Below, piece by piece: positions 9,254 to 19,491 of a DNA stretch of 64,000 bases. The stretch comes from Psychrobacter sp. NZS113. GTDB taxonomy: Bacteria; Pseudomonadota; Gammaproteobacteria; Pseudomonadales; Moraxellaceae. How positions within the stretch are numbered: position 1 is the stretch's first letter; each line of letters begins with the position of its first letter. The stretch lies in assembly GCF_015864825.1 (NCBI RefSeq), contig NZ_JADYWL010000005.1, forward strand, positions 248,001 to 312,000. The letters run 5' to 3'. Both the position numbers and the translations under genes were made by a program. The notes under the pieces were generated by a model. It was not told the origin of the DNA, did not search any database, and saw only the letters and a list, made by a program, of their open reading frames with translations.

Positions 9254-11257
9254 ATGGACAAGTGTCAAACAAAAGGTTTAAAGCACTATTCAAACTCTAC
9301 GCTCATGTTTGGCATAACGACTGCGTCTATTTTGATTATGGGCACAGTCGTAACCATTGGAGCAAGAGCAAGTGCTTTTGCCCCATCTGAGAATCCAACA
9401 TCTACAGTTGCCGCCTGTCCTGCAAATCATAAAATGTATTACGTCGGAGCTTCTGCTCCTACCTCAACGGACACAGCCCCTGTCACTTCTCAAGCACTCA
9501 GTTGGACAGCAGGAAACACGACTAAAACATTCACTTTCGCAGAAACGTCAGGCAATAAGACATTTGTCATCAGCTTTTCTTCAATTGTAGATAAGACCAC
9601 TACTAGCATAAGCTCACCAGCAAATGCTACATCACCTTTTTACGATAGTCTTAGCGGTGTGACCACGTCAGCATTAAACTTGGTGCATAGTTCTCCAATT
9701 TCAACGACGTCTAAGACAAATCATTTATTGGATATCACGGTTAACCGACCTACCAGTAAGACAGGGTACAAAATTCAAGATGTAGACTCCCTAACGACCA
9801 ATAGCTTAACACCCTATATAGAACAAGTAGATGTGTCTGCCAATAGCGGTAAGCTGACTTACGTCAGCGCGTATCAAACCATAAACACTGCCGGTACTAT
9901 TGTGACTGGTAAAAAAGGTCTGAACTGTAGTACTGGGGGTTGTACGATTGATGCAAATTGGAATTACACACTCGCGGATATCGCACTCAACTTAAAACAT
10001 AACAATACACTAAGCGAAGTAAACAGCCCGCATGCGGTTGGCTACTCAGACTTTTACTTTTGTCTTGCACCACCCAAAATAATCATAAAAACAGTACTAA
10101 ATGGTACTCGTGTCAATAGTAGTGATCAGTTCAAAGTTGAAGTTACCAATGGCACAACCGTTGTAGACGCTGTGACGACTACAGGTACTACTACAACCGT
10201 TAGTAATGGTACTAGCGCCGTTCTGACTTTAAAAGACTCAACCAGCTATACTATTGCAGAGCGCATTTTAAATGGTGGGAGCATTAGCAACTATAATGCC
10301 AGTTATGCTTGTACCAATGGCTCAACGGGCAGTACGACGGTGATGCCTACTGGCACAGCCAGCTCATTTACGTTATCCAATTTAAACTATGGTGATGAAA
10401 TCACATGTACTATCACAAATAGTCCTAACTATGTGTTCTCAGGTACTGTTTTTAATGACAATGGTGGCATTACCGATGCCCAAGCTGATGCCACCAACAG
10501 CACCATCACAAGTGGCGTGTATAGCAACTCAAACTATTTCAACGGCATATTGAACGCCCCTACTGAAACTGGTATCTCTGGTAGTACCATTACGTTAGTG
10601 GATAAGTGTGAAAACCCAACCAAAACCTATGCCACACAAACCTTAACATCGACAAACGCAAGCGATATTGGTACTTACCAATTTAACATCGCTAGCAGTG
10701 TCATCGGTACTCAAAGCTCTGTTTGTCTCATTGAAACCTATAGTGGTACCGCCTATCCTGTACGCACAACGATTGATAAACGTACCGTCAGCTTAGTAAC
10801 CAATACCTATAGTTACTCCAGTAATGATTTTGGCCGAGTGATTACCAACAACTCAGCCATCGTACTTGAAAAAGAGCAAGCAGCAAATACGTGTAATATT
10901 ACAGACCTGACTACAGTCACCACCTATAGTAAGAATGCATTATCTAGCTCGACGAATGGTGCCGATGTACAACCAGGTCAATGTATTGCTTACAAAATTA
11001 CAGCCACAAATCGCGCAAATATGGATATTAGCAACTTTATTATGCAAGATGTGCTACAAAAAAATGACGCTAGTAATCCAGCAGATACCACGGTTACTTC
11101 TGTATTGGCAAATCCAACACGAGCCTCTGGCATTTACAGCGATAGTCTCGTCAAAGGTCAGAATGGGACTATTACTACTATAGCTACCGTATTGACGAAA
11201 AGGAGCGCTCGCACCTTCTATTTCAACACTCAGTATGGATCAACGCAGTCCAAATAA
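9254..11257 (+). CDS. Secreted Thr/Ser-rich multidomain protein (prealbumin-like and SdrD_B-like modules, two-Cys C-terminal domain)
   Basis: This exported protein of 667 residues has a long signal peptide (cut after 'ARASA', about residue 41). The first module ('KMYYVGASAP', 'ALSWTAGNTTKTFTF') is of a type seen in Gram-negative surface proteins. At about 275-395 is a prealbumin/SpaA-like fold ('PKIIIKTVLNGTRV ... GDEITCTITN'). At about 396-530 comes an SdrD_B-like unit ('YVFSGTVFNDNGG ... ISGSTITLVDKC'). The last about 130 residues form a domain with 'NTCN' and 'PGQCIAYKITATN' also found in the 687-residue neighbour. SD AGAGG precedes ATG, and a strong terminator closes the unit. Likely a surface adhesin or matrix subunit; function is inferred from modules only. 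Confidence 0.75.
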   Translation: MDKCQTKGLKHYSNSTLMFGITTASILIMGTVVTIGARASAFAPSENPTSTVAACPANHKMYYVGASAPTSTDTAPVTSQALSWTAGNTTKTFTFAETSGNKTFVISFSSIVDKTTTSISSPANATSPFYDSLSGVTTSALNLVHSSPISTTSKTNHLLDITVNRPTSKTGYKIQDVDSLTTNSLTPYIEQVDVSANSGKLTYVSAYQTINTAGTIVTGKKGLNCSTGGCTIDANWNYTLADIALNLKHNNTLSEVNSPHAVGYSDFYFCLAPPKIIIKTVLNGTRVNSSDQFKVEVTNGTTVVDAVTTTGTTTTVSNGTSAVLTLKDSTSYTIAERILNGGSISNYNASYACTNGSTGSTTVMPTGTASSFTLSNLNYGDEITCTITNSPNYVFSGTVFNDNGGITDAQADATNSTITSGVYSNSNYFNGILNAPTETGISGSTITLVDKCENPTKTYATQTLTSTNASDIGTYQFNIASSVIGTQSSVCLIETYSGTAYPVRTTIDKRTVSLVTNTYSYSSNDFGRVITNNSAIVLEKEQAANTCNITDLTTVTTYSKNALSSSTNGADVQPGQCIAYKITATNRANMDISNFIMQDVLQKNDASNPADTTVTSVLANPTRASGIYSDSLVKGQNGTITTIATVLTKRSARTFYFNTQYGSTQSK

Positions 11258-11296
11258 ACTTCTAAGTAATCCTCTACAGCCCTTACCCAACATGAA

Positions 11297-11338
11297 CAAC
11301 TGTCGATATCATTTATTGATCGACAGTTGTTTTTTTTT
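11297..11338 (+). terminator. Rho-independent terminator
   Basis: Perfect 12-bp stem AACAACTGTCGA/TCGACAGTTGTT (11297-11308 with 11321-11332), then a T run. It separates the first secreted protein from the following genes, so these are two transcription units. Confidence 0.9.
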
Positions 11339-11564
11339 GCCTGTTTAACTGGGTATTCTTACCATTCAGCTGCTTTATAACTCACTCTATCTGCTTTTTC
11401 TGAGCTTAAATAATAAACGATATATAATTACCTTAAGAATACTAAAAACGTATTTTACTTACATCAAACATACAGAACATGCTGAAAACACGTTGGAAAA
11501 ATTCACGAAATGAATTGGTTTGTTGAAGTGAGATAAACATTTTTTACTGAAAGAGAAACACATT
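11339..11564. other. Intergenic region before the small DUF11 protein
   Basis: With the preceding terminator this gap exceeds 300 bp. It is A+T-rich, with a TATAAT at 11423-11428 that could be a -10 for the following operon. No good -35 and no gene are seen. Confidence 0.3.
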
Positions 11565-12029
11565 ATGAAATTTTCTGCCATAACAACCAAATTAGTCATG
11601 ACCTCTATATTATGTGCCAGTTTTCTGGCCAATGCACATGCAGCAGACGCTTTGAAAATGGAATTACAAGCCAACAAAGTCATTAAATCTGCTGAAGGCA
11701 AAGCAACCTACGTTGCTGCATCGGATGCAAAAAAAGGGGAAGTTGTACAGTACCGTGCCAAATATACCAACACGATCGATCAGTCTATTAATGATGTGGC
11801 AGTCACACTGCCTATTCCCGCAAACATGAAGTTTACTGGTGAAGCAGTACCGAATAGCGCACAAGCCACTACAGATGGTACAAACTATGCAGATATGCCC
11901 CTCATGCGCAAAGTAAACGGAAAGGTGGTTGAAGTGCCTTTATCAGAATACAAAGCTCTTCGTTGGAATATCAAACATCTACCTGCGAAAAAATCAGCAG
12001 ATGTTGCACTCAACGCCACTGTTAACTAA
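11565..12029 (+). CDS. Small exported single-DUF11-domain protein
   Basis: This 154-residue protein has a signal peptide cut after 'NAHA' (about residue 26). The mature part is essentially one DUF11-type beta domain: 'KGEVVQYRAKYTNT', 'SINDVAVTLPIPANMKFTG', 'YKALRWNIKHLPAKKSADV'. No lipobox, TM segment or anchor is seen, so it should be periplasmic or secreted. It lies 44 bp before the 687-residue DUF11 protein and is probably co-transcribed with it and the barrel protein. A minor subunit, adaptor or chaperone of the same assembly is possible. DUF11 is only a structural assignment; no function is known. Confidence 0.75.
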   Translation: MKFSAITTKLVMTSILCASFLANAHAADALKMELQANKVIKSAEGKATYVAASDAKKGEVVQYRAKYTNTIDQSINDVAVTLPIPANMKFTGEAVPNSAQATTDGTNYADMPLMRKVNGKVVEVPLSEYKALRWNIKHLPAKKSADVALNATVN

Positions 12030-12073
12030 TTGTTATTACCCTTTATTACTTATATCTCTAGGAAAACTACCGC

Positions 12074-14137
12074 ATGAAACCAAATCTATTTAAATATTCA
12101 GTATTAACTGTTGGTATTGTCGCTGCAATGGGTACTGTCACTGCCAATGCTGCCACTCAGTCATATGATGCTACCAATGCTTTTTCAGTGAAAAACAAAG
12201 CATCAGCTACCTATACTGTTGCAGGTAATACAACATCACAAACTGTAACGTCAAACGAAGTGGTAGTGAACGTATCAGAAAAAGGGGCATTTAGCTTAAT
12301 TGCGACCAATGATGATACCGCTGCTGGTGGCACTGTTGGTGATGACCTGAACAAAAATCTCACTATCAACCCTCAAGCCAAATCAGCCGTAGCGTTCACC
12401 CATACGTTGACCAATGCTGGTAACGTCTCTGATACCTATACCATCACCCTTGCTAACGCAACAGGGGATGATTTTGATTACAACCTCACTACTAGCACCA
12501 TCGTCTATCAAATCAAGCAAAGTGGCGTAAATTTTGGTAGTGCAGTAACCATCGCTAACAACGGTAAGATCGTACTTGCGGCCAATCAAAGTGCAGAAAT
12601 CACTGTTAATACATCTGCTGATGCAGAGCGTATCATCAATAAAAACGGTATCTTGACCGTGACGGCAACCAGTACTTATTTAACCAGCAAAAGCCAAACT
12701 GCTGCTGCGAGCAACACTGACAATGCCATCACTACAACGCCGCTATATGCCATCACAAAATCAGCAACGACCAATCTTGGCACCAAAGTTTTTGATTTGA
12801 ATAATTCTAGTGCTTATATTATTTATACGATTACTGTCAAAAACGAAGGCACATTAGCGGGTACGGCCGTCAAGATATCTGATGCCATACCAACGGGTTT
12901 GGTCGCTATTAAATCTACCGAAACCAACTACGTTGCCCCAACTGTGACCGCTAGTGCAGGCAGTATAGCGAAAACTGTGGTTATTGGAACAGACGCCAAA
13001 ACTATCACAGTAACGGATCAGGATATCAAGATAGGCGAAACCATCACGATCACTTTCCGTGCGAAAAAAGACAGCACCGTTACCACCACAGCAACCTCTA
13101 TTACTAACTATGCTGTGGTAACTGACAGTACGGCCGACAACGGCACGTTTGACCTTGTTGATAGCTCGGGTGATACAAACGATAAATCAGTCACTGAGAA
13201 GAACTACGAAGATGGCACCTTGGGTAAAGACAACAACACCAATGCAACTATCACGACTAGTAACCAAACCCGATCTCTGACCATCACAGCAGGTGAAAGC
13301 AAAGAAGTTGCCTTAGTAACGAGCGGTGCAAGCCTTGGCAATACTTATGTTTATACCATTACTAACAAAGGTACAGACATAACAGAAGCTACCACCACAG
13401 GTTCTACTGCGGGCGCTGTTAAGTTATCTATCACGCCTACTGCGGCCACTAACAGCACCACTGACGACCCAAACATTGCTATCACTCGCGTGTTTGTAGA
13501 TGCTAATAGCAACGGTGTTTATGACTCTACTGAGACTGTCTTGACTGGTACTAATGGTATTTATGACCTAAATGCAGCAGCCACTGCTGGTTTAGCGCCA
13601 AATGCCTCCGTTATCATCGGCGTACAGGTTGTCACTACTGGTACTAGTAACATTGCAGGCGGCGTGAATAACATTGGCAACTACGAAACCTTGACCATTG
13701 CCGTATTACCACAAGGGACTGTTTCTGGCACAGCAAAACCTGCTGACGTTAGCACTACCTCTACCACCACCATGCAAGGCATCAACCTACAAAAATACCA
13801 GTTGGCTGATAACTGTACCGTAACGGCCGCTAGTATCGCTTATACCGATAGCCGCTGGGTACAAACTGCTAGCACAGCAACGGCAGGCCAATGTATTTTT
13901 TATAAACTTGAAGCCACCAACACTTTCACGACCACAGCCATTAGCAACATCGTGGTATCAGATACATTAGATACGAACGTGACCTATCGTAGCGATTTTG
14001 CATCAAACGCCACGGCCACTGACGGTACGGTAAGCCCTTTGGTTAAAGGTACATTTGCAACCTTAGCTGCCAAAGCGAGTGCGGCCATCAAGTTCTCTGC
14101 CACAATCTCACAGGCTGGTAGCACTACTACGAATTAA
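12074..14137 (+). CDS. Secreted DUF11-repeat surface protein
   Basis: This 687-residue protein has a signal peptide ending 'VTANA' (about residue 26). The N-terminal module ('VKNKASATYTVAG ... SNEVVVNV', then 'TLTNAGNVSDTYTITL') resembles the N-terminus of the 1737-residue barrel protein. A DUF11 domain follows at about 224-355 ('YIIYTITVKNEGTLAGTAV'). Next is a module with a calcium-loop-like 'DANSNGVYDSTE' (D476). The last about 115 residues ('NLQKYQLADNCTV', 'TAGQCIFYKLEATN', 'LVKGTFATLAAK') match the C-terminal domain of the protein at 9254-11257. It is very rich in Thr, Ser, Ala and Asn and poor in aromatic residues, like S-layer or adhesin material. It is likely the major structural subunit of the cluster; this is inference. 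Confidence 0.78.
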   Translation: MKPNLFKYSVLTVGIVAAMGTVTANAATQSYDATNAFSVKNKASATYTVAGNTTSQTVTSNEVVVNVSEKGAFSLIATNDDTAAGGTVGDDLNKNLTINPQAKSAVAFTHTLTNAGNVSDTYTITLANATGDDFDYNLTTSTIVYQIKQSGVNFGSAVTIANNGKIVLAANQSAEITVNTSADAERIINKNGILTVTATSTYLTSKSQTAAASNTDNAITTTPLYAITKSATTNLGTKVFDLNNSSAYIIYTITVKNEGTLAGTAVKISDAIPTGLVAIKSTETNYVAPTVTASAGSIAKTVVIGTDAKTITVTDQDIKIGETITITFRAKKDSTVTTTATSITNYAVVTDSTADNGTFDLVDSSGDTNDKSVTEKNYEDGTLGKDNNTNATITTSNQTRSLTITAGESKEVALVTSGASLGNTYVYTITNKGTDITEATTTGSTAGAVKLSITPTAATNSTTDDPNIAITRVFVDANSNGVYDSTETVLTGTNGIYDLNAAATAGLAPNASVIIGVQVVTTGTSNIAGGVNNIGNYETLTIAVLPQGTVSGTAKPADVSTTSTTTMQGINLQKYQLADNCTVTAASIAYTDSRWVQTASTATAGQCIFYKLEATNTFTTTAISNIVVSDTLDTNVTYRSDFASNATATDGTVSPLVKGTFATLAAKASAAIKFSATISQAGSTTTN

Positions 14138-14277: not shown

Positions 14278-17200
14278 ATGCATCACGCAATATCTTCGTC
14301 TCGTAACCCACGCTTCCGTATTGGAGCGCTGACTACGTTAGCCACGTCGATGCTACTTATGCAAGCAAATATGGTTCATGCTGAAGATGGCAAAGGCGTT
14401 ATTGATATTAATAATACGGCCAGTGTCAGCTACCACTCGGCTGACGGTAGCGTGCAAGCGGGTATTTCTAATAAGGTTAATATTACAGCCTTTACCCTAC
14501 CCCAACATGCCATCACTTTGACCCAGCCTTTGTCAAAAACCGTCAGTGTGGGTGCAACTGCTGAGTGGATCAATGTCCTGTCTAATAATGGCACGTATGA
14601 TGAAACCATCTCGTTAAGCTATGATTATCCAAGCAGCTTGTCTAATTTCAAAGTGTACCAAGACATTAACAAAGATGGTTTGATTGATGCAAATGACCTG
14701 CAAATCACAGATCTCAAACAGATCAAAATTGGTCAAGGCGAAAGCATACAACTGATTGTACAAGCATTGACTGACCTTAGTGCTGCAGACGGTGATAGCG
14801 CTGATATAAAAATTGGCGCAGTGGTGCTGTCTGACGAATCTATTACAGCCTCAGTGACCGATAGCTTGACGATTGTTGCTCCTAGCATCAATTTTTCGTC
14901 GTCTAGTTTTAGTGGCACAAAAAGCACGTCGCAAGTTAGCGAAAGTGTCTATGTTGAAGCAAGCTTTGCACAGTGTAATGTTCAAGCGGATCAACCTGAC
15001 CAAGTGTGGATAACGGTTACCTCTCCAACAACTGGTGATACTTATTCGCTGAAAGCATTAGAAACTGGCAATAATACTGGTAAATATCGTCTAACAGCGG
15101 CTACCGCAAATAATGCAAATGCGGTGACAGATACCATTATTCAAACCTTAAGTAATGACATACTTACCGCTAAACTGGTTGCTTGTGTTGCGCCTTCTGT
15201 TGGCTTGAATCAACAACCCAGTCAAACCGACTTATCTTACGTGACTGAACAAGTCTCAAATAAAATAACCATCACTAATGATGCCGCAAGCTTACAAGTC
15301 ACAAAAGAAGGCGATGTAAAAACTGCCGAATTTGGTGACTATGTAAACTATAGCATCACCGTCAAAAACGACGGCTCAGCAACCGCTTATGATGTAGAGC
15401 TAAAAGATGCCCTACCACGTGGCTTTGCTTACGTTTCAGGCAGTCTGAGTTATAGCAGTAGCACGAGCCAAACCACAGAGTTTACGACCGAAGGCAAATA
15501 CAAGGTCTTAAGTTTGGGTGATATGAGCAGTGGTGAGAGCAAGAGCATCACGTATCGCGTATTGATTGGCTCAACTGCATTAGGCGGTGATGGTATCAAC
15601 CGTGCCACTGCTACTGCACGTAACGCCCAAGACCAAGCATTGGTTTCGAGAGAGGCACAGTGGCCAGTTGAGGTTAGCCGTGGCTTGATGAACACCGATG
15701 GCATTATTATTGGTAAAGTCTATCACGACATCAATCGTGACGGTATTCAGCAAAAAGAAGCAGGCGAGCTTGGCGTTGCAGGTATCCGTATCTACATGGA
15801 AAACGGCAGCTTCATCGTCACTGATTCTGAAGGTAAATACAACTTTTATGGGGTAAGTGCGAAAACGCACGTGCTCAAAGTAGACCGCACTACGCTACCG
15901 AGAGAAACAGAACTGATTACCCAAAGTAATCGTAATGCTGGCGATGCTGGCAGCCGTTTTGTCGATCTAAAATATGGTGAATTGCATCGTGCAGACTTTG
16001 CCATTGTAAGTGGTATGGCAGATAGCACTGAACGTTTAAACGAGGAGCTTGTTGCTCGTAGCAAAAGCATTAACGCTAAAAACAATGCGCTAGAACAAGC
16101 CATCAAAAGCGAACTTGTGTTAGAACCTGATTACGACACTGATGATGACAATGTTGATGCCAGCGGTTGTAAGTCAATTGACGGCTTGGATCAAAGTATC
16201 AGCTGTGATTCAGCAATTATCAATGATTTAGCGACATTTCATGAGGCTAAAGTAGATTTAGCCATCACTACCATTTTGCCACCTGCACCAAAAGAGCTTG
16301 AAGAATACCTTAAACAAGTCGCTAATAACGATGTCGCTTTTATCAACTTGGGTGAAGGCCAACAACTGACCTCATACAAACAATTGGTACAAATTCAGGC
16401 GCCACTAGGATCGAACTTTACGTTATATGCCAATGGTAAGGCTGTGTCTGATGAATTAATTGGTAAAACAGCAGAACAAGAAAAGCAAAGTGTCGCTGCT
16501 TTTGACTACTATGCCGTCGAGCTAAAACGTGGACGTAACACCTTGCGTGGTGTCGCAAAAGACGTGACCGGAAAAATTATATCAGAACAATCTATTGATG
16601 TATTAACACCAGATAGCTTGCAAGCCATTGATTATCGTACTCAAGACTACTTAGTTGAAGCGGATGGCATGAGCGAATACCAAGTGGTTATTAGCTTGAA
16701 AGATCGTGACAACCGTGCGTTCATTCCAGCAACCGCTCTTACTATTGATACAAATATCGGTCGCATTAACCTTGAAGACAGCAATAAAAATCAAGCTGGC
16801 ACACAAGTTACGGTTAACGGTGGTGAGCTGTTGGTTTCAGTTATCGCCCCAAGCGCTCCCGGTAAGGGCGAGCTGACTATTGATACTGGCAGTAGCAAAC
16901 AAGTTATTCCATTACAGTTTACTGCCAAATTGCGTCCGCTGATTGCTGTTGGTATCGTAGAAGGCGCTATCTCACTCAAAGACTTTGATGGCAGTAGTAT
17001 TACCGATGCACAGGGCGCTTTTGAGCAAGAGTTACATGAGTTTGCAGGCAATGATGACTACTCAGCAACCGGCCGTGCGGCGATGTTCCTAAAAGGTAAA
17101 GTGCGGGGCGACTACCTCCTCACCCTATCTTATGATAGCGATAAAAAAGGTGAACGCTTATTCCGTGATATTGACCCTGGCGAATACTATCCCGTATACG

Positions 17201-19491
17201 GCGATTCATCAGCCAAAGGGTTTGACGCTCAATCTACTAGCAAGCTGTACGTACGTCTTGATAAAGGTCGCTCGTTTGCTATGTATGGCGATCTAAAAAC
17301 CCAAATTGACAATGATGAAGGTATCAAGCTTGGTCAGTACAGTCGTACGCTAACAGGTGGTAAGGGTCAATATGAAAACGGCAAAACGCGTATTACTGCC
17401 TTTGCTGCCGAAACCAGCTCGTCACAGCGTGTTAGTGAAACCCGTGGCCTAGGTATTTCAGGCCCATACGACCTTGCCGATAATTTTGATGACGTATTAG
17501 AAAACTCTGAAACCGTAGAAATCATCACACGTGATGCGAACAATTCCGGAATTATTATCAGCCGTGAAACCCTAACATCACTATCAGATTACGAAATCGA
17601 CACCGTTAGCCGTAGTCTATACTTAAAGTCGCCTATTGCCAGCCAAGATGTTGACGGCAACCCTATTTATTTACGCATCACTATTGAGGTTGATGAAGGC
17701 GGCGAAAAATACTGGGTCGGCGGTGTGGCAGCAAAGCATCAACTGACAGACAAAGTCTCTGTCGGTGGTAGTTACATCAATAGTGATGACCCACTGAACA
17801 AAGAAGAGTTGGCCAGCATTAACAGTGTGGTGCGTTTTAACGACAAGTTAAAACTGGTTGCAGAATATGCCAAAAACACTGCAGAAAATCCTGATTATGA
17901 ATCAAGCAGTGTCATTGGTGATACCAATACCAAAGGCGATGCCTTACGCGTTGAGCTTAATTATAACGACAATAAGCAAACCCGCGCTAAAGCTTATTAC
18001 AGCAAAGCAGATGAAGGCTTTGTCACTGCGGCATCACCATTAACGTCTGGGCGTACTGAATCTGGTTTAAATGTTGTTCATACATTGGATAACGCTAAAA
18101 CATCGCTTAAGTTTGAAGGTGTTAGTAGTAAAGACCATACCACTGACGAGAGTATTGACGGCATACAAGCCACCGTTGAACAACGTTTGAGCACCAATAT
18201 TGTTGGTGAAGTAGGTGTGCGTTATTATAAAGAAGAAAATATCGACACCACAGATGACGATGTTTTCACAGACGATAGTAGCACCGATGTAAATCTTGAA
18301 GGCACCACCGCTCGTGCTCGTATTACTGCACGCCTACCTAAGCTGAATAACAGTTTGGTTTTTGCTGAATATGAACAAGACATTAGCAAAAGCTCACGCA
18401 ATGCTACGTCTGTGGGTGCCGAAACACCACTTGCTAACTTAGGCCGTTTATATGCGCGTCATGAGCTTATCAACGACTTGTCAGGCACTTATGGGCTTGA
18501 TGATACAGATGAGCACCAACATACTGTGGTGGGTTTTGACGCCAACTATATGAAAGACGGCAAAGTATATAGCGAATACCGTGCCAGCGATACCATTAGT
18601 GCGCGCGAAGCAGAAGCAGCCATCGGCCTTAAAAACAAATGGTATGTACAAGATGGTTTAACCTTGAATACCTTACTTGAGCGTGTAGAATCACTAGAAA
18701 AAGATGATGATGATGATGATGATGACGACAGTACCGCAACAGCAGTAGGATTTGGGGTTGAGTATCTTGCCAAAGAAAACTATAAGGCTTCAGGTCGACT
18801 AGAAAAACGTTGGGCCGATTCCAGCGATACCTTGCTAGGTAGTGCAGGCATCGCTTACCGTTATACCGATGATATTACCTTATTAGCCAAAGATATTTAT
18901 TCACAGATTGAATACGAGGATGGTTATCGCACTATCAACCGTTTTCAGCTGGGCGCAGCATACCGTGATTACAATAGTAACCAACTTGATATGTTAGCCA
19001 AGCTTGAGTATCGCTTAGATGACTATGCTACAGGCACTGACCCTTATAAAAAAGACACCATCGTTTGGTCATGGAATGGCAACTACCATCCAACTCGTGC
19101 GATGACATTGTCTGGACGCTATGCTGGTAAATATACAGAATATGATGCTGACAATATTGTCAGTGACAATACAGCACATGCGCTTTATGGTCGCGGTTTA
19201 TATGACATCAGTGAACGTTGGGATGTAGGTGTGCAGGCAGGCACTTACTGGAACAAGCAAGCGGAAGACATGTCTTATATGCTTGGTGCTGAAGTAGGAT
19301 ATAGTCCTATGACTAACTTGTGGTTGTCACTCGGTTATAACTTCATGGGATTCGAAGACGAAGATATCGCTTATGATGACACGACCCAACAAGGCGCATA
19401 CTTTAGACTACGCTTTAAGTTTGATGAAGATCTATTCAAACGTGAAGATCCACGCAAAAACACACGCCTAGTCAGTGACTCTACCTTATAG
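14278..19491 (+). CDS. Giant outer-membrane protein: DUF11, SdrD_B-like and Ig-like modules plus large C-terminal beta-barrel
   Basis: This 1737-residue protein has a signal peptide cut after 'MVHA' (about 35). Modules in order: an N-terminal module with an EF-hand-like loop 'DINKDGLIDAND' (D129); a two-Cys Ig-like module (about 205-330); DUF11 (about 340-465, 'VNYSITVKNDGSATAYDVEL'); an SdrD_B-like unit (about 474-578, 'GKVYHDINRDG ... TDSEGKYNFYGV'); a helical acidic linker; and an Ig/invasin-like stretch to about 890. From about 890 to the end runs a barrel of alternating strands, beginning near 'GRAAMFLKGKVRGDYLLTL' and 'YYPVYGDSS', ending 'GAYFRLRFKF' plus a short tail. A nine-Asp run (1476-1484) lies in a loop. 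The barrel (about 850 residues) is far bigger than an autotransporter barrel. It may anchor or export the neighbouring DUF11 proteins. Confidence 0.8.
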   Translation: MHHAISSSRNPRFRIGALTTLATSMLLMQANMVHAEDGKGVIDINNTASVSYHSADGSVQAGISNKVNITAFTLPQHAITLTQPLSKTVSVGATAEWINVLSNNGTYDETISLSYDYPSSLSNFKVYQDINKDGLIDANDLQITDLKQIKIGQGESIQLIVQALTDLSAADGDSADIKIGAVVLSDESITASVTDSLTIVAPSINFSSSSFSGTKSTSQVSESVYVEASFAQCNVQADQPDQVWITVTSPTTGDTYSLKALETGNNTGKYRLTAATANNANAVTDTIIQTLSNDILTAKLVACVAPSVGLNQQPSQTDLSYVTEQVSNKITITNDAASLQVTKEGDVKTAEFGDYVNYSITVKNDGSATAYDVELKDALPRGFAYVSGSLSYSSSTSQTTEFTTEGKYKVLSLGDMSSGESKSITYRVLIGSTALGGDGINRATATARNAQDQALVSREAQWPVEVSRGLMNTDGIIIGKVYHDINRDGIQQKEAGELGVAGIRIYMENGSFIVTDSEGKYNFYGVSAKTHVLKVDRTTLPRETELITQSNRNAGDAGSRFVDLKYGELHRADFAIVSGMADSTERLNEELVARSKSINAKNNALEQAIKSELVLEPDYDTDDDNVDASGCKSIDGLDQSISCDSAIINDLATFHEAKVDLAITTILPPAPKELEEYLKQVANNDVAFINLGEGQQLTSYKQLVQIQAPLGSNFTLYANGKAVSDELIGKTAEQEKQSVAAFDYYAVELKRGRNTLRGVAKDVTGKIISEQSIDVLTPDSLQAIDYRTQDYLVEADGMSEYQVVISLKDRDNRAFIPATALTIDTNIGRINLEDSNKNQAGTQVTVNGGELLVSVIAPSAPGKGELTIDTGSSKQVIPLQFTAKLRPLIAVGIVEGAISLKDFDGSSITDAQGAFEQELHEFAGNDDYSATGRAAMFLKGKVRGDYLLTLSYDSDKKGERLFRDIDPGEYYPVYGDSSAKGFDAQSTSKLYVRLDKGRSFAMYGDLKTQIDNDEGIKLGQYSRTLTGGKGQYENGKTRITAFAAETSSSQRVSETRGLGISGPYDLADNFDDVLENSETVEIITRDANNSGIIISRETLTSLSDYEIDTVSRSLYLKSPIASQDVDGNPIYLRITIEVDEGGEKYWVGGVAAKHQLTDKVSVGGSYINSDDPLNKEELASINSVVRFNDKLKLVAEYAKNTAENPDYESSSVIGDTNTKGDALRVELNYNDNKQTRAKAYYSKADEGFVTAASPLTSGRTESGLNVVHTLDNAKTSLKFEGVSSKDHTTDESIDGIQATVEQRLSTNIVGEVGVRYYKEENIDTTDDDVFTDDSSTDVNLEGTTARARITARLPKLNNSLVFAEYEQDISKSSRNATSVGAETPLANLGRLYARHELINDLSGTYGLDDTDEHQHTVVGFDANYMKDGKVYSEYRASDTISAREAEAAIGLKNKWYVQDGLTLNTLLERVESLEKDDDDDDDDDSTATAVGFGVEYLAKENYKASGRLEKRWADSSDTLLGSAGIAYRYTDDITLLAKDIYSQIEYEDGYRTINRFQLGAAYRDYNSNQLDMLAKLEYRLDDYATGTDPYKKDTIVWSWNGNYHPTRAMTLSGRYAGKYTEYDADNIVSDNTAHALYGRGLYDISERWDVGVQAGTYWNKQAEDMSYMLGAEVGYSPMTNLWLSLGYNFMGFEDEDIAYDDTTQQGAYFRLRFKFDEDLFKREDPRKNTRLVSDSTL
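18703..18729 (+). repeat. GAT/GAC codon run encoding nine aspartates
   Basis: Seven GAT followed by two GAC codons in frame within the barrel part of the giant outer-membrane gene. It is a simple trinucleotide run, probably in an extracellular loop, whose length could vary by slippage without a frameshift. Confidence 0.9.

Follow-up and report, generated by a model that had tools for sequence, protein, structure and literature searches.

Within 64,000 nucleotides of Psychrobacter sp. NZS113 (NCBI RefSeq assembly GCF_015864825.1, contig NZ_JADYWL010000005.1, positions 248,001 to 312,000 of the forward strand; hereafter, the window), a gene cluster encodes the exported proteins P0001, P0002 and P0003 and a larger protein, P0004, with a predicted outer-membrane barrel at its C-terminus. 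P0001 and P0003 end in a shared domain which, judged from its sequence, is a DUF11 ("CLIPPER") domain of immunoglobulin (Ig) type that stops before its last strand. We propose that this domain could be the acceptor half of a split DUF11, completed by a hairpin donated from the start of P0003 or P0004 and sealed by an isopeptide bond, so that tip, stalk and barrel would be joined in a chain. As a whole, this proposal is in our judgement evenly poised between right and wrong.

The shared C-terminal domain and its likeness to DUF11

The preliminary description of the window had reported that the proteins encoded at 9254–11257 and 12074–14137 share a C-terminal two-cysteine domain and differ in their upstream modules, and both observations held. 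The end of P0001 (667 amino acids) contains IVLEKEQAANTC, C577 within PGQCIAYK, and then ATN, QDVL, SDSLVKG and GST, and that of P0003 (687 amino acids) contains INLQKYQLADNC, C607 within AGQCIFYK, and then ATN, SDTL, SPLVKG and GST. Their Smith-Waterman score was 123, a value reached by none of 5000 shuffles (mean 41.5, standard deviation 7.2, maximum 83), and the best two of the 196 pairs of 130-amino-acid windows from P0001 and P0003 were those near both C-termini, with a score of 101. The full-length proteins matched weakly in plain BLASTP (E-value 0.31). Upstream, Pfam revealed a SpaA_3 domain in P0001 (E-value 1e-26) and an internal DUF11 in P0003. The shared C-terminal domain is confirmed as real and far above chance. 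The preliminary description had missed that it is of DUF11 type and lacks the last strand, that P0002 is a third version of it without the aspartate, and that P0003 and the barrel protein start with hairpins similar to the missing strand.

In DUF11 domains, a lysine and an asparagine can form an isopeptide bond with the help of an aspartate, and the asparagine is carried by the final strand of the domain's own chain; passages of PMC12617251 describe this, and give the triad of PDB entry 9IFR as Lys715/Asp748/Asn806. The complete DUF11 inside P0004 has its Lys343, Asp377 and Asn441 in register with the lysine, aspartate and asparagine of 9IFR (phmmer E-value 7.6e-5), with a Lys-Asp spacing of 34 that is one residue off the 33 of 9IFR, and each of the three residues was present in all 80 barrel open reading frames (ORFs). 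These came from 80 barrel loci, 79 of them fetched by their barrel plus the window, in which proteins were classed by a hidden Markov model (HMM) of the C-terminus and by the donor motif, and some of whose contigs end early. From the same loci, the HMM picked 149 distinct C-terminal domains, in which the lysine is present in 149/149, the aspartate in 148/149, the cysteines in 149/149 and 147/149, and the phenylalanine of the last strand in 149/149. Comparison of the acceptor profile with that of the barrel DUF11 gave an E-value of 8e-8 and a probability of 94.5%, aspartate aligned on aspartate, and the alignment stops at residue 434, seven residues short of Asn441 of P0004. The strand that carries the asparagine is not in the acceptor's own chain, as the protein ends after the preceding strand.

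A similar picture was obtained for P0003, which passes the Pfam cut-off for DUF11 (28.4 versus 24.6 bits), its best stretch being the internal domain. In its AlphaFold2 model (mean predicted local distance difference test, pLDDT, 82.6), the C-terminal strand 669–678 matches strand 323–332 of the internal DUF11, the strand order having been read by eye. The internal domain has an extra strand, 347–351, beside Asn345, whereas the C-terminal domain ends with strand 669–678 and a disordered tail. The internal domain aligned to 9IFR with a VIA-align Z of 9.7 over 121 residues (model range 220–396), and also matched the pilins PitA, BcpA and SpaD with Z from 9.9 to 11.3. Among 67 aligned P0003-type proteins, Lys574 of the C-terminal domain was invariant, and its Asp630, together with Asp270 and Asn345 of the complete internal DUF11, was conserved in at least 90%; Lys229 of the internal domain was neither invariant nor conserved to that level. 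The shared domain resembles the DUF11/CLIPPER domains (PF01345, and 9IFR from an adhesin of Acinetobacter silvestris, a related genus) in its Ig-type fold, in the positions of lysine and aspartate and in belonging to surface stalk proteins. It differs from them in that their asparagine strand lies in the same chain, whereas here the domain lacks this strand, and the next protein opens with a strand like it.

The missing strand and the chain it could build

Directly after the signal peptide, both P0003 and P0004 start with a hairpin of the form IxNxAxxY...SNxV. In P0003-type proteins aligned without motif selection, its Asn41 was found in 72 of 73, and Ala43 and Tyr47 in all 73. According to our proposal, the C-terminal domain would be one half, the acceptor, of a DUF11/CLIPPER domain that is split in nature; it would give the lysine (K540 in P0001, K574 in P0003) and the aspartate (D599 and D630), and the hairpin of P0003 (N41) or P0004 (N46) would provide the missing strand and the asparagine. 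After export, each acceptor would be completed by the hairpin of the protein that follows it in the chain, and lysine and asparagine, now buried, could then form an isopeptide bond without any enzyme. The resulting chain would run from P0001 (tip) through P0003 (stalk) to P0004 (outer-membrane barrel anchor), an order that we infer from which halves each protein has. The two cysteines would probably be bonded in a disulfide that stiffens the open acceptor, and P0002, a truncated DUF11 without the aspartate, may hold donors or cap acceptors, unreacted. Topology, position and conservation argue for the donation of a strand, and an intermolecular Lys-Asn isopeptide bond is probable because lysine and aspartate are kept in a chain that has no asparagine.

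Strand donation could also take place without a covalent bond, lysine, aspartate and asparagine being structural, as in chaperone-usher pili. The truncated domain and the donor hairpin would stand without any chemistry, and in one distant acceptor (L215, read by eye) the aspartate is replaced by glutamate. Fibres held by donor strands are moreover well known, type 1 pili among them. The archaeal threads described in parts of PMC9715654 are a further case. However, lysine and aspartate belong to the small number of acceptor positions that are nearly invariant, they are kept in distant acceptors without the cysteine pair, and buried in a domain without the asparagine they would have no obvious structural need, so we hold a purely non-covalent assembly to be rather unlikely. 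Extremely unlikely, in our view, is self-closure, in which the hairpin of P0003 would complete the C-terminal domain of the same molecule to give a ring. Both halves are indeed present on P0003, and two strands of its hairpin (43–59) were modelled by AlphaFold2 with pLDDT near 90, but P0001 with an acceptor only and P0004 with a donor only fit a chain, and the domains of P0003 are predicted to be arranged like beads on a string.

The likeness between hairpin and missing strand was also sought directly in the sequences. In 65 of the 72 P0003-type proteins, the pattern hydrophobic-or-Thr-x-N-x-[AVTF], a loose one, was present at most 32 residues after the complete internal DUF11, versus 798 of 2861 random windows (28%). 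With the N-termini removed, the best match of an HMM of the barrel hairpin was the end of the internal DUF11 in a P0003-type protein (L187, E-value 3e-4). When entire N-terminal regions were compared as profiles with the acceptor and with complete DUF11, only Ig domains matched (E-values 0.008 to 0.1), and not the hairpin. In a gain test, a donor was joined to an acceptor and the change in score against an HMM of complete internal DUF11s was recorded for 72 pairs, whose sequences are related, so that the counts are not independent. The barrel donor joined to the P0003-type acceptor gained 5.35 bits on average, whereas shuffled donors changed the score by -0.40 and random barrel windows by 0.89, and it outscored all 20 shuffles in 47 pairs and all 20 random windows in 42. 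Windows chosen to match the motif gained 2.5–2.6 bits, so that the gain is due partly to the motif itself and partly to something more. As direct evidence from the sequences for equating the hairpin with the missing strand, these results are modest.

Association with the barrel in the family and beyond

In a survey of 149 genomes of the family, the barrel protein was found in 67 and not in 82. The P0001 domain was matched in 46 genomes, all 46 of them barrel-positive, and in 0/82 of the barrel-negative ones (Fisher p 2e-22, relatedness not corrected for); the preliminary description had named a wide occurrence of the domain in genomes without any barrel homologue as what would refute its idea, and no such occurrence was seen in the family. 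The P0003 domain was matched in 41 genomes, of which 38 were barrel-positive. Genomes G110, G131 and G139 were considered as cases of the domain without the barrel and discarded, as their matches to the P0003 domain are weak and correspond to lipoprotein loci in which the domain HMM finds nothing. A conserved lipoprotein-like locus (641–666 amino acids, signal with NGCGG) with weak P0003-domain matches was seen in barrel-negative genomes at L105, L106 and L107.

Gene order showed the same association. In 71 of the 80 loci, the barrel is preceded at a distance of no more than 400 bp by an ORF with both donor and acceptor; an acceptor-only ORF was also present upstream in 54, and a P0002-type ORF lay just upstream in 60. 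The full order of P0001, P0002, P0003 and barrel types was present in 48/80, the remaining loci including contig ends, cut or split frames, L160 without an intact barrel ORF and L140 without a P0003-type gene. The N-terminal parts vary among the acceptor-only proteins, and a second acceptor-bearing protein of 619 amino acids (L092:5627-7486, G000:C30) is encoded on the contig of the window, some 141 kb away from the barrel gene. Both findings fit several tips docking on one anchor. In genome G140, a gene in surroundings like those of L092 (L095:5245-6870) is cut by an in-frame TAG.

These data support a link between the C-terminal module and the barrel protein. The preliminary description had offered the domain as a sorting, anchoring or polymerisation signal read by the barrel; the tie to the barrel stood, and anchoring or polymerisation fits better than sorting. 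Reading of the domain by the barrel for sorting or secretion, without any strand exchange, would account for its strictly C-terminal position, for the co-occurrence with the barrel and for its presence on the distantly encoded protein of L092. It leaves unexplained why the domain stops before the asparagine strand, why a similar strand is found at the N-termini of the barrel and P0003, and why lysine and aspartate are kept, and we regard it as distinctly unlikely. The absence of the last strand and the presence of donor hairpins weaken the reading as a pure sorting signal.

The barrel itself was examined in an AlphaFold2 model of residues 560–1737 of P0004, in which about 32 consecutive strands were counted by hand within 585 residues (1129–1713). 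Foldseek ranked chains of SprA, the giant barrel of the type 9 translocon, 1, 3 and 4, but with template modelling (TM) scores of 0.16–0.19, LptD chains also having low TM scores, and VIA-align returned mostly TonB-type receptors, other barrels and glycosidase domains. The C-terminal part of P0004 is predicted to be a large outer-membrane barrel, for which no class is claimed. Its closest named relatives are from Psychrobacter. Regarding P0002, leucine occupies the aspartate position in 65 of the 66 P0002-type proteins of the barrel loci, and nine distant barrels have adjacent P0002 relatives; that it acts as a non-reactive cap or chaperone is our guess.

Outside the family, the barrel profile matched in 38/274 genomes of the class and 30/249 of the phylum, two draws that overlap and in which one family is over-represented among the matches. 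From 20 regions around these barrels, 23 complete acceptor-like C-termini were read by eye; not counted were L203:1-1442, which extends beyond its region, and three barrel ORFs (L205, L212 and L221) that are cut or short and have no flagged donor motif, and L206 has no barrel ORF. The lysine could be placed in 23/23 (ambiguously in L220) and the aspartate in 22/23, with glutamate in L215, and the IxN start was found in 14 of 16 distant barrel N-termini. In contrast, the cysteine pair is present in just 4 of the 23, and the two-cysteine motif was dropped as the defining feature. Since distant barrel-side acceptors mostly lack them, the cysteines are not the essence of the domain, which points to the split as the older feature, cysteines having been added in some lineages. 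A scan of viral contigs, done once, revealed no barrel relative, and none of its 12 pattern matches was confirmed.

P0001 and P0003 could also be independent fibrillar adhesins built of ordinary stalk domains, their truncated DUF11 end being a family quirk without any partner. DUF11 is indeed common in adhesin stalks, as stated in parts of PMC12617251, and a sample of 114 genomes from the class contained it in 37. However, no anchor is apparent in P0001 or P0003 themselves. Besides, a control of 29 loci taken across DUF11 at large (10 run off the end, 5 have no readable frame) left 14 ends judged by eye, of which 9 extend past the strand in question (NxA being present in 4 of these), 3 have a different sequence at their end and 2 are truncated. 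Both truncated ends (L226 and L245) belong to barrel-positive genomes, and the ordinary-stalk explanation appears to us highly unlikely. In genome G221, DUF11 matches on contigs C2, C39, C43 and C51, other than that of the barrel, end at profile positions 85–92, a stop falling inside some of them or at their end, and may correspond to several acceptor-only proteins in one genome.

Several results weigh against the split-domain proposal. Pfam gave no DUF11 match on P0001 at E-values up to 1; the barrel-hairpin HMM matched 0/80 of the N441 regions of the barrel's own DUF11, and the P0003-hairpin HMM gave nothing better than an E-value of 0.04, in an acceptor-only protein. In the gain test, the barrel donor topped all 20 motif-matched controls in 8/72 pairs with windows from outside the system and in 22/72 with barrel windows, about 3.4 being expected, and the P0003 donor joined to the P0001-type acceptor gained 1.97 versus 0.61 bits, topping all 20 controls in 8/65. 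A mirror-tree comparison, based on 43 loci with all three genes and on the 24 used after removal of near-identical and non-Psychrobacter-like ones, was not specific, with 0.25 for the barrel donor and the P0003 acceptor and 0.26 for the same donor and the P0001 acceptor. The model of the P0004 barrel is of low confidence (mean pLDDT 68), and the barrels of L207 and L210 lack the donor motif, though acceptors adjoin that of L210. Two of the nine distant P0002-type proteins (L209 and L210, by eye) seem to have the aspartate, contrary to the idea that P0002 is unreactive. Finally, neither domain query matched in 20 of the 67 barrel-positive genomes of the family. Among such genomes that were read, L104 and L110 have diverged C-termini of the same kind, and L108 and L109, from the window's genus, have kept the barrel and the small protein and lost the P0001- and P0003-type genes. 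A remnant of the P0003 N-terminus was seen at L109:9052-9192, and the N-terminal region of the barrel is shortened in L108 and L109.

Features of the cluster and comparison with known systems

The features of the cluster are listed in Table 1. By analogy with the SpaA_3 triad listed in parts of PMC12617251, the SpaA_3 domain of P0001 has a candidate internal triad, Lys279/Glu336/Asn389. Downstream of the barrel, ORFs of about 260–370 amino acids were seen in several loci; P0005 could be a further member of the system.

Table 1. Features of the gene cluster, in window coordinates; acceptor and donor denote proposed roles.
Feature	Residues	Position	Strand	Remarks
P0001		9254..11257	+	Exported; signal sequence, variable N-terminal module, SpaA_3, C-terminal acceptor; without N-terminal donor motif; proposed tip adhesin
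SpaA_3 prealbumin-like domain of P0001	276-391	10079..10426	+	Pfam E-value 1.2e-26
C-terminal acceptor of P0001	535-667	10856..11254	+	Lys540, Cys547, Cys577, Asp599, Phe657
P0002		11565..12029	+	Small exported DUF11-like protein; ends at the same strand as the acceptors; Leu at the Asp position
P0003		12074..14137	+	Exported string of Ig-like domains; N-terminal donor and C-terminal acceptor; proposed stalk subunit
N-terminal donor hairpin of P0003	38-72	12185..12289	+	Asn41; alignment without motif selection
Internal complete DUF11 of P0003	222-365	12737..13168	+	Lys229/Asp270/Asn345; Pfam best stretch 247-356
C-terminal acceptor of P0003	566-687	13769..14134	+	Lys574, Cys581, Cys607, Asp630, Phe674; last predicted strand 669-678, then disordered end
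P0004		14278..19491	+	N-terminal donor, Ig-like domains, complete DUF11, SdrD_B, C-terminal large beta-barrel; proposed outer-membrane anchor
N-terminal donor hairpin of P0004	42-75	14401..14502	+	Asn46, Ser64, Asn65, each in 80/80 barrel ORFs; alignment without motif selection
Complete internal DUF11 of P0004	339-453	15292..15636	+	Lys343/Asp377/Asn441; Pfam E-value 4.6e-16; cis comparison
SdrD_B domain of P0004	480-545	15715..15912	+	Pfam E-value 4.5e-07
Predicted beta-barrel of P0004	~1129-1713	17662..19416	+	AlphaFold2 secondary structure
P0005		19627..20400	+	Small exported Cys-containing protein 3' of the barrel gene; no Pfam match over cut-off

SpyTag/SpyCatcher and similar split adhesin domains are engineered pairs in which a lysine and its partner residue lie on separate chains and form an isopeptide bond by themselves. 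The proposed system is alike in having lysine and partner on separate chains, whereas here a DUF11 (CnaA-like) domain would be split naturally and for assembly. Pili of the chaperone-usher kind (type 1 and P pili) are built of incomplete Ig folds, each completed by a strand of the following subunit, with a tip adhesin that has no donor and a barrel at the base. An incomplete Ig fold, a donor-less tip protein and a basal barrel would be common to both, and the anatomy of the proteins is compatible with joining by a donor strand, but here each long multi-domain protein would have its donor at one end and its acceptor at the other, and a covalent seal is predicted. No Pfam match to PF00577, which we take to be the usher family, or to a PapD-type chaperone was found on P0002 and P0004 at E-values up to 1. 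The LPXTG-type signal and membrane segment of sortase pili were sought in P0001 and P0003 and not found, their ends consisting of the acceptor strand and a short polar tail.

Intersubunit bonds have been proposed or described in two other kinds of fibre. Archaeal threads (Saci_0406) are head-to-tail donor-strand filaments with a proposed intersubunit isopeptide bond; in the portions of PMC9715654 that deal with them, this bond links the N-terminal Asp to Asn57 two subunits away, and neither DUF11 nor an outer-membrane barrel is involved. Sporesilk fibres (Remaut, Sleutel and Sogues 2025, cited in PMC12617251) have, according to a passage of the latter, a natural autocatalytic intermolecular isopeptide bond, in an alpha-helical hairpin fold and in endospore fibres. 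Type 11 secretion cargo, which parts of PMC12282271 define by a C-terminal eight-stranded barrel domain of TbpB type, was rejected as an identity for these proteins, as their C-terminal domain is DUF11-like and gave no TbpB-type Pfam match at E-values up to 1. The literature searches, which covered open-licence papers, turned up neither this operon nor a split DUF11, which is no proof of novelty; the nearest precedents are the CLIPPER domains, the archaeal threads and the sporesilk fibres.

The cluster may represent a natural counterpart of SpyTag/SpyCatcher, a tentative reading that we place slightly on the doubtful side, in which a split DUF11 would weld tips, stalk and barrel without sortase or usher, and one barrel would serve interchangeable adhesins, some of them encoded elsewhere. 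If this is true, Gram-negative bacteria would build covalent surface fibres without enzymes, and every species would be a source of protein ligation pairs, ready-made and matched to each other. A function would then also be at hand for a set of DUF11 proteins and of large barrels that are widespread in the phylum of the host.

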